A DNA stretch of 64,000 nt from the NCBI RefSeq assembly GCF_016093295.1, contig NZ_JAEDAL010000003.1, positions 248,001-312,000 on the forward strand, read 5' to 3'. The position numbers were made by a program, and so were the translations under genes. The stretch is from Inhella gelatinilytica. GTDB lineage: Bacteria > Pseudomonadota > Gammaproteobacteria > Burkholderiales > Burkholderiaceae_C. This document shows positions 31,706-40,264 of the stretch, piece after piece. The notes beneath the pieces were generated by a model, which saw only the letters and a program-made list of their open reading frames with translations, searched no databases and was not told the origin of the DNA. Within the stretch, counting starts at the first letter, position 1; each line of letters opens with the position of its first letter.

Positions 31706-31804
31706 GCCCGTGGCGGACAAAAAAACTTGTCAGGTTCGGGGCCAGACCTACGACATTGCGCTTGTGCACGCCGTGTGCATCCTCCTTTTAACCAGGATTG
31801 ACCC

Positions 31805-32155
31805 ATGAACTTGAAGACCATTGCCTCGCTGGCCGCCGGCCTGATCGCCGCCTCCGCCCATGCCGCCCCCGCCGCAGACGCCAAGTGCGGTGCCGGCACT
31901 TGCGGCAAGAAAGAAGCCGCCTCCAAGCCCGCAGGCGCCGCCTCAGACGCCAAAGCCGACAAGAAAGACGCGGCATGCGGCAAGAAAGACGGCAAGAAAG
32001 ACGCCGCCTGTGGCAAGAAGGATGCGGCCTGCGGCAAAAAGGAGGGCAAGAAAGACGCCGCGTGCAGCAAGAAAGATGCCAAGGCCGACAGCAAGGACGA
32101 CGCGAAAAAGGACGCGGCTTGCAGCAAGAAAGACGCCTCTTGCAGCAAAAAGTGA
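31805..32155 (+). CDS. Bufferin-like RiPP precursor, secreted Cys/Lys repeat peptide
   Basis: This 116-residue peptide has an N-terminal signal (MNLKTIASLAAGLIAASAHA) and a body built almost only of Lys, Asp, Ala, Gly and eight Cys. Cys occurs as KCGAGTCGKK (residues 27-36), then four-residue repeats ACGKK at 57, 68 and 75 and ACSKK/SCSKK at 86, 105 and 112. Peptides of this kind beside DUF692 genes (bufferins, HvfA-type) carry post-translationally modified Cys, oxazolone/thioamide or similar, and bind copper. The stop overlaps the maturase start (GTGA). Confidence 0.85.
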   Translation: MNLKTIASLAAGLIAASAHAAPAADAKCGAGTCGKKEAASKPAGAASDAKADKKDAACGKKDGKKDAACGKKDAACGKKEGKKDAACSKKDAKADSKDDAKKDAACSKKDASCSKK

Positions 32156-32964
32156 ACCAGGCCGCACCCGCCGCGGTTCTGCGCGGCTGGGGGCTCGGTT
32201 ACCGGCGAGAGATGGCGGACTGGGACGTGTCCGCCATCCCCGCCGACTTCTTTGAGGTCGCCCCCGAGAACTGGCTGCGCCGGGACCGGGAGCGGCTGCA
32301 CGAGCTTCGCGCCGGGGGCCGAGCGGTCCACCTGCACGGAGTGAGTCTGAATCTGGGCGGCACCAGCCCCGTGCCGGTTGATTTCCTGCGTCAGGTGCGG
32401 CACTTGATGGCGGAGCTGGGGACGCCCCATTACTCCGATCATTTGGCCGCCAGCGGCGATGCCCACCAGCTGTACGACCTCTTTCCCATTCCGTTCACCG
32501 AAACCGAGGCCGACCGCGTGGCCGATCGAATCCGCGCAGCGCAAGATGTTTTGGGGTGCCGCATGGCGGTCGAGAACGCCACTTGGTACACGAATGTGGG
32601 GGGAATGGGCGAAGCGGAGTTCGTCGCTCGGGTGCTGGACCGTGCCGACTGCCAGATGCTGCTGGACGTGAACAACCTGGCGGTCAATCACAAAAACCAC
32701 GGCGGTTTGACGGCCAGCGAATTTGTGGCCACGGTTGACCCCCGCCGGGTGAGTTATGTGCACGTTGCGGGCCATGAATTCGACGAACGTTTTGGCCTGC
32801 ACATTGACACCCACAGCCAGCCGGTGGAGCCCCCAACGGCGGAGTTGGCGCGCCGACTGCGCCGCGAATGGGGCTGCCCGGTACTGCTGGAATGGGACAA
32901 CGATGTGCCAGACCTCCCCACGCTCAAACGAGAACTGCAATGGCTGGCTTCTACGACTACGTGA
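32152..32964 (+). CDS. bufB: DUF692/MNIO maturase (BufB/HvfB-type)
   Basis: This 270-residue multinuclear non-haem iron enzyme would modify Cys residues of the adjacent precursor. Family motifs in order: GLGYRREM (15-21), PEN (38-40), HGVSLNLGG (62-70), SDHLA (95-99), VENATWY (140-146), LLDVNNLAVNH (170-180), HVAGHE (204-209), IDTHSQPV (218-225) and LLEWDND (245-251). His, Asp and Glu within these are the usual iron ligands. The GTG at 32152 overlaps the precursor stop by 4 bases and gives the usual family length. Confidence 0.92.
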   Translation: MNQAAPAAVLRGWGLGYRREMADWDVSAIPADFFEVAPENWLRRDRERLHELRAGGRAVHLHGVSLNLGGTSPVPVDFLRQVRHLMAELGTPHYSDHLAASGDAHQLYDLFPIPFTETEADRVADRIRAAQDVLGCRMAVENATWYTNVGGMGEAEFVARVLDRADCQMLLDVNNLAVNHKNHGGLTASEFVATVDPRRVSYVHVAGHEFDERFGLHIDTHSQPVEPPTAELARRLRREWGCPVLLEWDNDVPDLPTLKRELQWLASTTT

Positions 32965-33209
32965 GGGGCCGAACCGACGAACTGCCCGAGGGCTACAGCG
33001 AGCCCGGCCTTCGCGCCTACCGCCATTTGGTGCTGCTGGGGGCCACGCAAATGGTGGAGGCCCATCACCCTGAGCTCCGGGCCCAACTGGGGGAAGAAGC
33101 ATGGCTGGCCTTGATGCGTGCCTTTGTGCGGGACTCGGCGTGGGACTCTCCTTTTTATGGTGACGTGTATGACGAATTTGTGGCGTTCCTGGCACGCACG
33201 AGCGCTTGA
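32940..33209 (+). CDS. bufC: Short DUF2063 (BufC/HvfC N-terminal) partner protein
   Basis: This 89-residue protein has the DUF2063 opening pattern: FYDYVRGRTDELPEGYSEPGLRAYRHL, then GEEAWLALMRAFVRDSAWDSPFYGDVYDEFVAFL. BufC/HvfC proteins usually run to about 250 residues and present the precursor to the MNIO enzyme; here only the N-terminal domain is present. It overlaps the DUF692 gene by 25 bases and the DoxX gene by 41, so truncation by mutation is not obvious and the short form looks native. Confidence 0.82.
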   Translation: MAGFYDYVRGRTDELPEGYSEPGLRAYRHLVLLGATQMVEAHHPELRAQLGEEAWLALMRAFVRDSAWDSPFYGDVYDEFVAFLARTSA

Positions 33210-33660
33210 GGCGGTGGACGGCCTGGGCCTCTTGGCCTTGCGGCTGTGGCTGGCTCAGGAGTTTGTGCAAGCGGGCTGGATGAAAGTGGCAGCCGGCCCC
33301 AATGCGCCCGAGTGGTTTGCAGGGCTGAGTTTTCCGCTTCCGCTGGCCTTGCTGGGGCCCGACTGGAACTGGCGGCTGGCTGGGTGGGGAGAGCTCGTCT
33401 TGGGCGGTCTCTTGGCTGTGGGGCTGGCCACCCGTTTTTCTGCGCTTGGATTGGGCGTGGTCACGCTCGTGGCGGTGAACACGGTGCACTTTGCTTTGGG
33501 CTGGAGCGGTTGGAATCAGATTGAAACCGAGGCCGGGCAAGGCTTCAAATTGCCCTTGATGATGGGGGTGATGCTGCTGGCCTTGGCGACACAAGGCGGC
33601 GGCCGCTGGTCCTTGGATACGCTGGGGGCCCGTTACCGATCCAAGCCCTCGAGCGGTTGA
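33169..33660 (+). CDS. DoxX-family membrane protein
   Basis: This 163-residue protein has four membrane segments with the DoxX pattern: LLALRLWLAQEFVQAGWMKV near the start, GWGELVLGGLLAVGLATRF in the middle and LPLMMGVMLLALATQGGG near the end. DoxX proteins are often found in DUF692/DUF2063 clusters; their role is unclear, perhaps redox or quinone-linked. The ATG at 33169 lies inside bufC, and the ECF sigma gene starts 9 bases after its stop. Confidence 0.85.
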   Translation: MTNLWRSWHARALEAVDGLGLLALRLWLAQEFVQAGWMKVAAGPNAPEWFAGLSFPLPLALLGPDWNWRLAGWGELVLGGLLAVGLATRFSALGLGVVTLVAVNTVHFALGWSGWNQIETEAGQGFKLPLMMGVMLLALATQGGGRWSLDTLGARYRSKPSSG

Positions 33661-33669
33661 CGGCGTCGC

Positions 33670-34248
33670 ATGAGCGTCCAAGCCACCTCGGTATCCGAGC
33701 ATCCCGCCCTTGCGACCTGGCACGGCCCGCTGTTACGGTTCGCACGCCTGCACTTGAGCCCCCTGGAGGAGGCGGAGGATGCGGTACAGGAAACGTTTTT
33801 GGCGGCGGTCAGCGCTGAAAGCCCGGAGCATGCGGCCAACCCCCGTGCCTACCTGTTTGGCATCCTGAAGCACAAGATCACCGATCGTTTGCGGCGCCGC
33901 TACAAAGCCGGTGCGGAAGTTTTGCCCGACGACCCGGACGAGCTGGATGCGCTGCTGTTTGATGGGCGCGGGCACTGGTTGCCGGGGGTCGCGGTCAACC
34001 GCTGGGCCGATCCGGTGGCGAGCTTAGAAAGCGACCAGTTTTTTCAAGTGGTGGACGCCTGCGTCAGCCGCCTGCCGCTCAAAGTGGCCCGGGTGTTCAG
34101 CATGAAAGAGTTGTTGGAGTGCGACGCCTCAGAGGTCTGCAGCACCTTGGGAATGACCCAGGCCGATTACTGGCAGTGCATGAGCCGCGCACGCAAGCAA
34201 CTGCAGTTGTGCCTCAGTCAGCGTTGGTTTGACGGGAGATCGTCATGA
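33670..34248 (+). CDS. ECF-type RNA polymerase sigma factor of the bufferin-like cluster
   Basis: This 192-residue sigma factor has region 2 (LLRFARLHLSPLEEAEDAVQETFLAAV, with RAYLFGILKHKITDRLRRR) and region 4 (LPLKVARVFSMKELLECDASEV, ADYWQCMSRARKQLQLCL). It probably directs transcription of the upstream cluster. The stop overlaps the anti-sigma start (ATGATG, 34245-34250). In the Caulobacter bufferin operon an ECF sigma/anti-sigma pair also controls the genes, which supports the assignment. Confidence 0.85.
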   Translation: MSVQATSVSEHPALATWHGPLLRFARLHLSPLEEAEDAVQETFLAAVSAESPEHAANPRAYLFGILKHKITDRLRRRYKAGAEVLPDDPDELDALLFDGRGHWLPGVAVNRWADPVASLESDQFFQVVDACVSRLPLKVARVFSMKELLECDASEVCSTLGMTQADYWQCMSRARKQLQLCLSQRWFDGRSS

Positions 34249-34475
34249 TGCCCTGCCGAGAGTTTGTTGAAACCATCACCACGGAGCCGGTGGGAGCGCT
34301 GAGTTGGAGCCGCCGCTTGGCGCTGGGTTCGCACCGTCTGATTTGCCACCGCTGCCGGGCGTTCGAGGCCAACAACCGGGCTCTAGACAACCTGCTACAG
34401 GTTCATCGACAGCGGCTGGAAGAGCCGGCGCCACCGGCTGACGAGCCGCTGAAGACGCGCGTTAACCGGCCTTAA
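34245..34475 (+). CDS. Small zinc-finger (zf-HC2) anti-sigma factor
   Basis: This 76-residue protein has HRLICHRC, which is the H-x3-C-x2-C core of zinc-binding anti-sigma proteins, plus an N-terminal Cys (MPCREF). It lacks a membrane segment, so it would act in the cytoplasm, with metal or redox release of the sigma factor as a reasonable inference. It overlaps the sigma gene by 4 bases, and its 3' end overlaps the convergent DUF4936 gene by 14 bases. Confidence 0.8.
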   Translation: MMPCREFVETITTEPVGALSWSRRLALGSHRLICHRCRAFEANNRALDNLLQVHRQRLEEPAPPADEPLKTRVNRP

Positions 34476-39523: not shown

Positions 39524-40185
39524 TCCGCCGCGTTTTTTTGAGCAGCCTTGTTGCCTTGCCGATGGGCGGCCGCGCCGCCCCGTCGTCCTTGGAGCAGCAA
39601 CTGTTCAAGACCATTGAATTGGATCAGGGCCACTTTGTCCTGAAGCTCCTTTTGGATGGCGTGGATCCCAATGCCGTGGGGCCGCAGGGGCAACGTCCAC
39701 TGCATTGGGCTTTGATGCACGAGGCCGGAAAGGCTGTCGATGCCTTGTTGGCCGACCCGCGCACCCAGGTTGAGAGCGAAAACGACGCCGGGGAGCGTCC
39801 GATGATGCTCGCTGCGTTGCGCGGGCGGATGGAATGGGTCAAAGCGCTACATCGGCGGGGGGCGCACGTTGAACCCAAGCGCGGCCAAAAGGCGTGGGGA
39901 GCGCTGCATTACGCCTGTAGCGGTCCCGATGAAGGGGTCAGCGCGTGGCTGTTGGCCCAGGGCGCAGACCCCAATGCGCGCAGCGAGAACGGCACCACGC
40001 CGTTGATGATGGCCTTGGGCTACGGTCGGATCGACTCGGCCGCTGTGCTTCTTAAACACGGGGCGGACGGCCAGGCGGTGAATGACCTCGGGCTCGGGGC
40101 CTGGGAGTTTGCCAAGCGCGCCGGACGGCCCGAGGCCGCGGAAAAACTGGGGCTGAAACCGACGACGGTGTCAGACAAAACCTGA
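39517..40185 (+). CDS. Secreted ankyrin-repeat protein
   Basis: This 222-residue protein has a signal peptide (MLIRRVFLSSLVALPMGGRA) followed by about five ankyrin repeats: LLLDGVDPNAVGPQGQRPLH, LHYACSGPDEGVSAWLLAQG, and PLMMALGYGRIDSAAVLLKH. Ankyrin repeats bind proteins; the partner is unknown. It follows tatD with a 7-base overlap, which suggests co-transcription, a linkage seen in related genomes. Confidence 0.87.
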   Translation: MLIRRVFLSSLVALPMGGRAAPSSLEQQLFKTIELDQGHFVLKLLLDGVDPNAVGPQGQRPLHWALMHEAGKAVDALLADPRTQVESENDAGERPMMLAALRGRMEWVKALHRRGAHVEPKRGQKAWGALHYACSGPDEGVSAWLLAQGADPNARSENGTTPLMMALGYGRIDSAAVLLKHGADGQAVNDLGLGAWEFAKRAGRPEAAEKLGLKPTTVSDKT

Positions 40186-40264
40186 CAGACCTTCGCGGCG
40201 GGAGTCCACTGGAACCCCCTCAAGTGAGTGCCTAGAGTGGAACCCATCCGATCAGGAGGTTCCC

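Follow-up and report, generated by a model that had tools for sequence, protein, structure and literature searches.

The closest described relatives of the gene cluster treated here are operons for ribosomally synthesised and post-translationally modified peptides (RiPPs) in Neisseria and Haemophilus. The rpoE operon of Neisseria (NMB2140-2145) and the gonophorin cluster of N. gonorrhoeae (L147) have the same six gene types. HvfABCX of H. influenzae (oxazolin) and the fontiphorin genes fonABC (captophorins of the Lys-Cys group) share a precursor with a signal peptide and Cys repeats, and a DoxX protein that in our case scores above the cut-off of NCBIfam HvfX (94.2 bits, cut-off 80). The FonBC, HvfBC and gonococcal enzymes are reported to make 5-thiooxazoles (PMC12668002). 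In the window, by which we mean the whole 64,000-nucleotide stretch of Inhella gelatinilytica DNA analysed here (contig NZ_JAEDAL010000003.1, positions 248,001 to 312,000), a cassette at 31805-34475 on the plus strand consists of six co-directional genes, each of them confirmed, in the order precursor, maturase (a DUF692 multinuclear non-haem iron-dependent oxidative enzyme, MNIO), DUF2063 partner protein, DoxX, extracytoplasmic function (ECF) sigma factor and zinc-binding (ZAS) anti-sigma factor. The same cassette is found in 48 other loci, so it is more than a chance arrangement, and the first-pass annotation, which had proposed an MNIO RiPP cluster of this layout with its own ECF sigma/anti-sigma switch, is borne out. 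With a probability of about two in three, we read the cluster as an operon of the HvfABCX/captophorin kind, inducible by oxidant or metal stress, that would be matured without a RiPP recognition element (RRE) and whose product would bind copper.

The missing RRE is what we consider the main novelty; the earlier annotation had given the 89 residues of the partner without interpreting them. The partner gene (32940..33209, plus strand) encodes the helical DUF2063 domain alone (PF09836, 47.9 bits, E 1.6e-12). In 49 of 49 loci, a set from which ten loci (L033-L041, L044) had been removed beforehand as copies of named loci, the partner ends at most 14 residues past the DUF2063 domain (in L083 the gene is broken), whereas the domain has a tail of 150-227 residues in every one of the 63 control loci (34 Buf1, 18 Buf2, 6 HvfA and 5 unassigned). 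These control tails lie at the place of the RRE of NGO1945 and are putative RREs. Where a start was called (38 loci) the partner is 89-101 residues long, an alignment of 34 of the 49 partners (A1) has 20 invariant columns, and the HvfC profile matches all 34 partners tested, the window partner covering only positions 5-88 of the 237 of NCBIfam HvfC. AlphaFold2 predicts five helices for the 89 residues (pLDDT 93.7). The best VIA-align match of this model is MbnC residues 1-86 (Z 7.9, 3.4 A, 82 aligned) and the second is NGO1945 residues 31-96 (Z 6.5, 2.3 A, 66 aligned), both of them MNIO partners, with Z values that are moderate for a helical domain; Foldseek gave no match under E 0.001 for the short partner, and its best was 3dee.

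Two features of captophorin-type clusters are present, namely a DUF692 MNIO with the near-invariant residues and, directly upstream, a Cys-rich precursor with a Sec signal (by inspection). The third, the RRE of the PME-type 1 partner, is absent together with the whole C-terminal half in 49 of 49 loci, the DUF2063 domain being present, and for this reason we call the cluster a captophorin variant, which probably works like a captophorin. PME-type 1 partners (DUF2063 plus RRE) are described as having a narrow size range, mostly 250-260 residues, and as tied to precursors with a Sec signal (PMC12452194). PME-type 2 partners and MbnC have a helical N-terminal domain like that of the window partner, and many PME-type 2 proteins are reported to have too few residues for a complete RRE (PMC12452194), but they lack the DUF2063 signature and their precursors have no signal peptide, whereas the window partner matches PF09836 and is paired with a precursor that has a Sec signal. 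In the literature on MNIO, RRE and DUF2063 no partner without an RRE is described among the matches listed.

The Neisseria operons differ from the window in having EGKCG repeats, a full-length DUF2063-RRE partner (NGO1945, PDB 3DEE) and the DoxX gene first, where in the window it is fourth; the gonococcal MNIO is 38.4% identical to that of the window. Compared with HvfABCX and fonABC, the window has C-x-K-K units and not EGKCG, no [ND]PF segment, and a partner without RRE. The bufferin clusters, Buf1 (DUF2282) and Buf2 (6/12 Cys), the gig operons included, have the bufABC-like gene order, the Sec precursor and DoxX in common with it, and ECF genes occur in Buf1 clusters as in the window. The window precursor is unlike either kind of bufferin, however, its MNIO falls outside both, and its partner is about a third as long; gig of C. 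metallidurans, for comparison, has a 258-residue partner and a 94-residue DUF2282 precursor with 4 Cys.

The MNIO (32152..32964, plus strand, 270 residues, PF05114 with 238.1 bits, E 1.3e-70) begins at a GTG codon that overlaps the precursor stop (GTGA), and its gene overlaps that of the partner by 25 nt. Both the BufB and the HvfB models of NCBIfam match it below their cut-offs (for HvfB 239.2 bits, cut-off 360). In a tree of 91 MNIOs (FastTree, midpoint rooted, built without L102 and 20 of the 32 alphaproteobacterial Buf1 MNIOs) the 49 cassette enzymes form one clade with a local support of 0.746. The sister clade consists of six HvfB (EGKCG) enzymes and L004 (support 0.997), the node joining the two has a support of 1.0, and the Buf1 and Buf2 MNIOs lie outside the grouping. 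Since the 49 form a single clade sister to HvfB, the simplest history would be that the C-terminal half of the partner was lost on the branch of the cassette MNIOs. The window enzyme (AlphaFold2 pLDDT 88.8) keeps every residue that is conserved in at least 90% of the 91 MNIOs, among them E35, H62, H97, E141, D172, H204, H208, D219, H221, E247 and D249, which we read as the metal ligands and the base. Mapped by motif, D249 should stand at the place of the base FonB-Asp249, which precedes Phe250. The position after this base is reported to be Phe in Lys-Cys enzymes and Asp in Cys-Lys enzymes (PMC12668002); in the cassette it is Asn in 46 of 49, and Asn is also found in 12 of 14 Buf1 MNIOs. Further residues typical of the clade are Ala100, which replaces Trp, Tyr or Phe (46/49), Ser222 (47/49), and Met21 and Trp24 (48/49 each); the MNIO alignment (A2) holds 37 of the 49 enzymes. 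Six Buf2- or HvfA-like loci (L004, L013, L025, L027, L030, L032) have MNIO frames of 564-648 residues, seemingly natural fusions of MNIO and partner, which resemble an artificial HvfBC fusion that has been made (PMC13419390).

The precursor gene (31805..32155 with the stop, plus strand) encodes a secreted Cys/Lys-rich peptide of 116 residues with 8 Cys. A Sec signal peptide, MNLKTIASLAAGLIAASAHA, recognised by inspection, takes up 31805..31864. It is followed by the first motif, KCGAGTCGKK (C-x4-C, 31883..31912), conserved in the aligned precursors, and by a region of six C-[GS]-K-K units (31967..32152), three of them AACGKK, two AACSKK and one ASCSKK. An open reading frame with C-x-K-K lies 5' of the MNIO in 45 of the 49 loci. 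The 44 precursors with a start codon have 58-121 residues, 4-10 Cys and 2-8 C-x-K-K units; L053, L066, L083 and L089 have no countable precursor, the contig being short or the gene broken, and that of L067 has no start codon. The residue after Cys in these units is Ser 146 times, Gly 46 times, Ala 32 times and Cys once. The start reads M-[NTKS]-[ILV]-[KRP] in 34 of the 44, and the first motif reads CGAG[ST]C[GS]KK in 31, the remainder having a variant of it. Across the 40 precursors that were aligned, C28, C33, K35 and K36 are invariant. The claim that EGKCG is missing from the precursor was right, and the Lys-rich repeats of the ACGKK type turn out to be those of a conserved family.

As the only protein of the cluster, the precursor has no Pfam or NCBIfam match at all. 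None of the 40 aligned precursors matches the HvfA models NF050137 and NF050188, which find two of two HvfA controls, and none matches the Buf2 model NF050166, which gives the control L010 91.1 bits (cut-off 60). The models of Pfam and NCBIfam relevant to Buf1 match 0 of 40 as well, but the NCBIfam ones missed both Buf1 controls and Pfam was run without one; by eye the Cys pattern differs from that of Buf1. The search against bufferin and HvfA families proposed by the first-pass annotation has therefore separated the precursor from HvfA and BufA2, and from Buf1 by eye and by the missing Pfam match only. Its label bufferin-like finds no support in that form: the window precursor and 39 relatives match neither HvfA nor BufA2 models, and in the tree the enzyme groups beside HvfB, not BufB. 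An [ND]PF segment between the signal peptide and the first Cys is present in 6 of 7 HvfA-like loci and in 0 of 44 precursors here; that this segment and the RRE are absent together is suggestive only. The motif CGAG[ST]C is of the C-x4-C form, and the precursors may possibly belong to the 'CxxxxC' precursor family; that family is described as having a Sec signal, a conserved C-x4-C, a Lactamase_B_2 gene in 54% of its clusters and an authentic PME-type 1 partner (PMC12452194). PF12706 was found within 5 kb of the cluster in 0 of 13 genomes, the nearest being about 9 kb away (G836). A text search of the papers available for this analysis for CGAGTCGKK, CGAGSCGKK, ACSKKEA, ASCSKK, CGAGSCSKK and CSKKDASCSKK found none of them.

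The cluster also seems to carry its own control. A predicted ECF promoter, TGTCAGG-N16-CGAC, lies at 31728..31754 (plus strand), and with a spacer of 15 or 16 this motif is found 5' of the precursor in 23 of 23 loci that have a linked ZAS-type sigma factor and a readable start (the sigma-linked loci are 26, and L066, L083 and L089 have no checkable promoter). Six loci with a divergent sigma factor have TGTCAGG in none and carry GTAACC-N16-CG[AT]A instead, close to a published sigmaF motif, GTAACC-N16-CGAA (PMC3511200), and in L058, the one of them that was checked, NrsF is encoded beside the sigma factor. Each type of sigma factor thus has the promoter that fits it, which means that two ECF switches without relation to each other, one ZAS-type and one SigF/NrsF-type, have become attached to the cassette. 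The ECF control claimed earlier is in this way supported, and we infer that the promoter is autoregulatory, since the TGTCAGG motif is present and tracks the sigma factor. The published Neisseria promoter (-35 GTMAGBWTT, -10 CGTCTAAH) is reported to belong to an operon that is autoregulated in N. meningitidis (PMC2893595), and the gonococcal cluster has GTCAG...CGTC, similar to the window promoter.

When the N. gonorrhoeae locus was searched, on that small scale, with the sigma factor of the window (192 residues, Sigma70_r2 and r4_2, 33670..34248, plus strand), the gonococcal sigma factor scored 101.4 bits. The anti-sigma factor (76 residues, 34245..34475, plus strand) has the motif H-x3-C-x2-C, as previously noted, and scores 37.4 bits against NCBIfam NF052368 (cut-off 50). 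The longer pattern C-x25-H-x3-C-x2-C holds in 25 of 27 anti-sigma factors, the window included, and of the two misses L055 is one residue longer and L054 mis-parsed. MseR of N. meningitidis is reported with Cys and His at the same positions as C4, H30, C34 and C37 of the window protein (PMC2893595), and going by these sequences the switch belongs with SigE/MseR of Neisseria. Just 3' of the -10 the leader holds an inverted repeat, TGTGCAC-GCC-GTGTGCA (31763..31779, plus strand), which changes in sequence among relatives and could serve as an operator or form a hairpin in the mRNA. A stem of at least 6 Watson-Crick pairs is found in 13 of 24 non-redundant leaders, against a mean of 1.8 and a maximum of 6 leaders in 200 mononucleotide shuffles; no structure emerged from a consensus fold of the leader alignment.

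The promoter gives some indication of what the operon responds to. In the 3.5-Mb host genome the pattern TGTCAGGWWN13-14CGAC has one exact match, at the operon, and the reversed control none. In eight genomes, chosen as cassette carriers, it has 16 matches (reversed control 1), eight of which are the operon itself, one per genome. Seven of the eight others lie at most 130 nt before genes for MsrA+MsrB (3), Oxidored_molyb (2, MsrP-like in our reading), DsbD (1) and AhpC-TSA (1), and the remaining one (L128) has no such gene. These targets agree with what is reported of the regulons of SigE in Neisseria and of RpoE2 in Haemophilus (PMC2893595, PMC7907618). As the host has no second site above the control, its oxidative regulon is extrapolated from the relatives. 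A one-mismatch site in the window at 40161-40187 (minus strand) runs across the end of an opposite-strand open reading frame, ankyrin-like by eye, and we ascribe it to chance.

On the reading as a captophorin variant, the ZAS anti-sigma factor would hold the sigma factor until thiol-oxidant or copper stress in the periplasm inactivates it, and the freed sigma factor would read TGTCAGG-N16-CGAC and switch on the whole operon, its own gene and that of the anti-sigma factor included. The MNIO would mature the precursor in the cytoplasm, most likely turning Cys of KCGAGTCGKK and of the C-x-K-K units into 5-thiooxazoles, after which Sec would export the peptide as a periplasmic copper binder, with DoxX as an accessory. 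In addition to its other function HvfC is reported to enable the mixed-valent diiron state (PMC13419390), and the DUF2063 domain alone may still form the complex with the MNIO and tune the iron centre. With the RRE absent, it would fall to the DUF2063 domain and the MNIO to hold the substrate, probably by its signal peptide; HvfA without signal peptide is reported to be poorly modified (PMC13419390). For the Cys chemistry, copper binding, the inducer and this docking we argue by analogy with the described systems. A bolder form of the proposal has in our view even chances: MNIO maturation can dispense with the RRE, a lone DUF2063 domain activating the enzyme and Sec-targeted C-x-K-K precursors being recognised RRE-free, and the product would be a new captophorin subclass within a periplasmic methionine/thiol-repair regulon. 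If true, the two jobs ascribed to HvfC, tuning of the iron centre and leader binding, would be separated in nature, and a clade with the DUF2063 half only would allow the role of each half to be tested directly on proteins that are small and natural. The promoter shared in relatives with MsrAB, MsrP-like and DsbD genes would give a concrete prediction of the inducing stress, and the exchange of ZAS-type for SigF/NrsF-type switches, each with its fitting promoter, would be a rewiring of one RiPP cassette.

Several points weigh against the reading as a captophorin variant. For every member of the family the maturation of the peptide is a prediction. Asn250 (Phe in FonB, Asp in BufB2) could together with Ala100 mean an altered chemistry. 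Of 15 clusters without a visible sigma factor 9 have no promoter motif (among the six that have it, the contigs of L060 and L078 end too early), and with one mismatch allowed the host genome has 5 sites and the reversed control 10. MsrAB of N. meningitidis, which is under the control of the related sigma factor, is reported to be unresponsive to H2O2, diamide and singlet oxygen (PMC2893595), and an rpoE2 mutant of H. influenzae to have normal oxidant resistance in vitro (PMC7907618). Nor are the signal peptides more conserved than those of Buf1 and Buf2 precursors at equal MNIO identity (at 60-69% identity 0.49, Buf1 0.53, Buf2 0.50). Docking through the signal peptide thus gains no special support, and we rejected extra conservation as evidence for it.

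Among the rival explanations, the one we would rank highest, even if it is rather unlikely, is that the peptide is chiefly a sacrificial buffer against hypochlorite or thiol stress, made of modified Cys and Lys, and not a copper binder. It would suit the promoter sites before MsrAB, MsrP-like, DsbD and AhpC-TSA genes in relatives, and the related RpoE2 of H. influenzae is reported to drive an hvf-type operon after HOCl (PMC7907618), but the relatives with a Sec signal (Buf1, oxazolin, captophorins) are reported to bind copper or protect against it (PMC12452194, PMC12668002). As periplasmic copper stress overlaps with oxidant stress, the regulon cannot separate the two roles. Less probable still is that this MNIO clade installs another modification than 5-thiooxazole, for instance on some Cys only or with the neighbouring Lys taking part, so that substrate and active-site surroundings would have changed together. 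The clade-specific Asn250, Ala100, Ser222, Met21 and Trp24 could be taken in this sense, as could Ser, Gly or Ala after Cys and then Lys-Lys; FonBC is reported to leave motifs unprocessed in which the residue next to Cys on its C-terminal side is charged (PMC12668002), from which it follows that the neighbours of Cys matter. Against it stand the near-invariant residues, all of them kept, the FonB variants at the 250 site, which still yielded 5-thiooxazole, and the Buf1 MNIOs that also have Asn250, given that Buf1 of Caulobacter is reported to carry thiooxazoles (PMC12452194).

The remaining two rivals concern the partner. The cluster could be an ordinary bufferin or oxazolin cluster that borrows a full-length RRE partner from another MNIO cluster in the cell, and the host does have one other MNIO (L001, C17:222097-222918), some 25 kb ahead of the start of the window, whose precursor is Buf1-like and whose DUF2063 partner is full-length at 259 residues. 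We consider this quite improbable, because six genomes that are 90-100% complete (G400, G305, G367, G130, G363, G101) have a single MNIO and a short partner only, so that no second system can lend an RRE there, while both MNIOs of G181 are of the cassette type with short partners; the 20 invariant columns likewise speak for a partner under conservation. In the single-MNIO genomes and G181 the HvfC profile finds nothing but the short protein, and it finds long partners in G301, G836 and G1090, but as it misses the Buf1-type partner of the host, it is mainly the number of MNIOs that carries the argument. That the short gene is what decay has left of a normal partner is hardly credible, even though in L083 (Pelistega indica) partner and precursor are visibly broken, since its length is uniform and it is conserved across Beta- and Gammaproteobacteria and confidently folded. 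In the window, moreover, DoxX has its start codon within the partner gene, which leaves no space for a remnant of the RRE.

The DoxX/HvfX-family membrane protein (PF07681, 62.5 bits) is encoded at 33169..33660 on the plus strand, with a start that may be at 33157. Among the 49 loci DoxX is linked in 41, the sigma factor in 26 and the anti-sigma factor in 27, some contigs being cut. A first look at 100 relatives gave 46% as the best MNIO identity in another genome. Among 399 genomes of the same family 13, the host included, have a match at E <= 1e-48, ten at 61-72% MNIO identity, G137 at 48% and G053 at 46%, the last being HvfA-like and not of the cassette type; none of five same-genus genomes passes that threshold. 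A scan of named genomes with short peptide patterns, of which the best 80 of 517 relatives were kept, gave 46 loci at 56-74% in Beta- and Gammaproteobacteria (Aquabacterium, Macromonas, Comamonas, Bordetella, Methylophilus, Methylobacillus, Thauera, Undibacterium, Thalassolituus and others) and a further 33 at 34-38%, which come mostly from Alphaproteobacteria and have precursors of the Buf1 type; owing to this selection the cassette family must be larger than 49 loci. In wider samples, the host included, 3 of 399 genomes of the order and 1 of 369 of the class have it. Of 160 neighbouring proteins 73 were scanned with Pfam, and ten further proteins besides; none of 66 families has more than 3 members among the 73, 12 of the 25 commonest families listed are present in two or three proteins, and PMSR and SelR each match a single one. 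Being rare in the wider samples and without widely shared neighbours among the proteins scanned, the cassette is a patchy, self-contained unit.

Some single loci are worth a mention. In Pelistega indica the DoxX gene is broken as well and the MNIO frame is intact, apparently a decaying copy. Macromonas nakdongensis has two clusters of the family (L049 and L085), and L085 has no DoxX, sigma or anti-sigma gene in the 4.7 kb 3' of its partner gene. An 11-kb plasmid of a Moraxella sp. (L148) carries MNIO, DoxX and sigma factor genes and a DUF2063-type 'putative DNA-binding domain' gene; an IS4 transposase separates the MNIO from the partner. Two N. gonorrhoeae records of 2.17 Mb (NZ_CP119142.1 and NZ_CP119140.1) are filed as plasmids, and judging from their size they are chromosomes.

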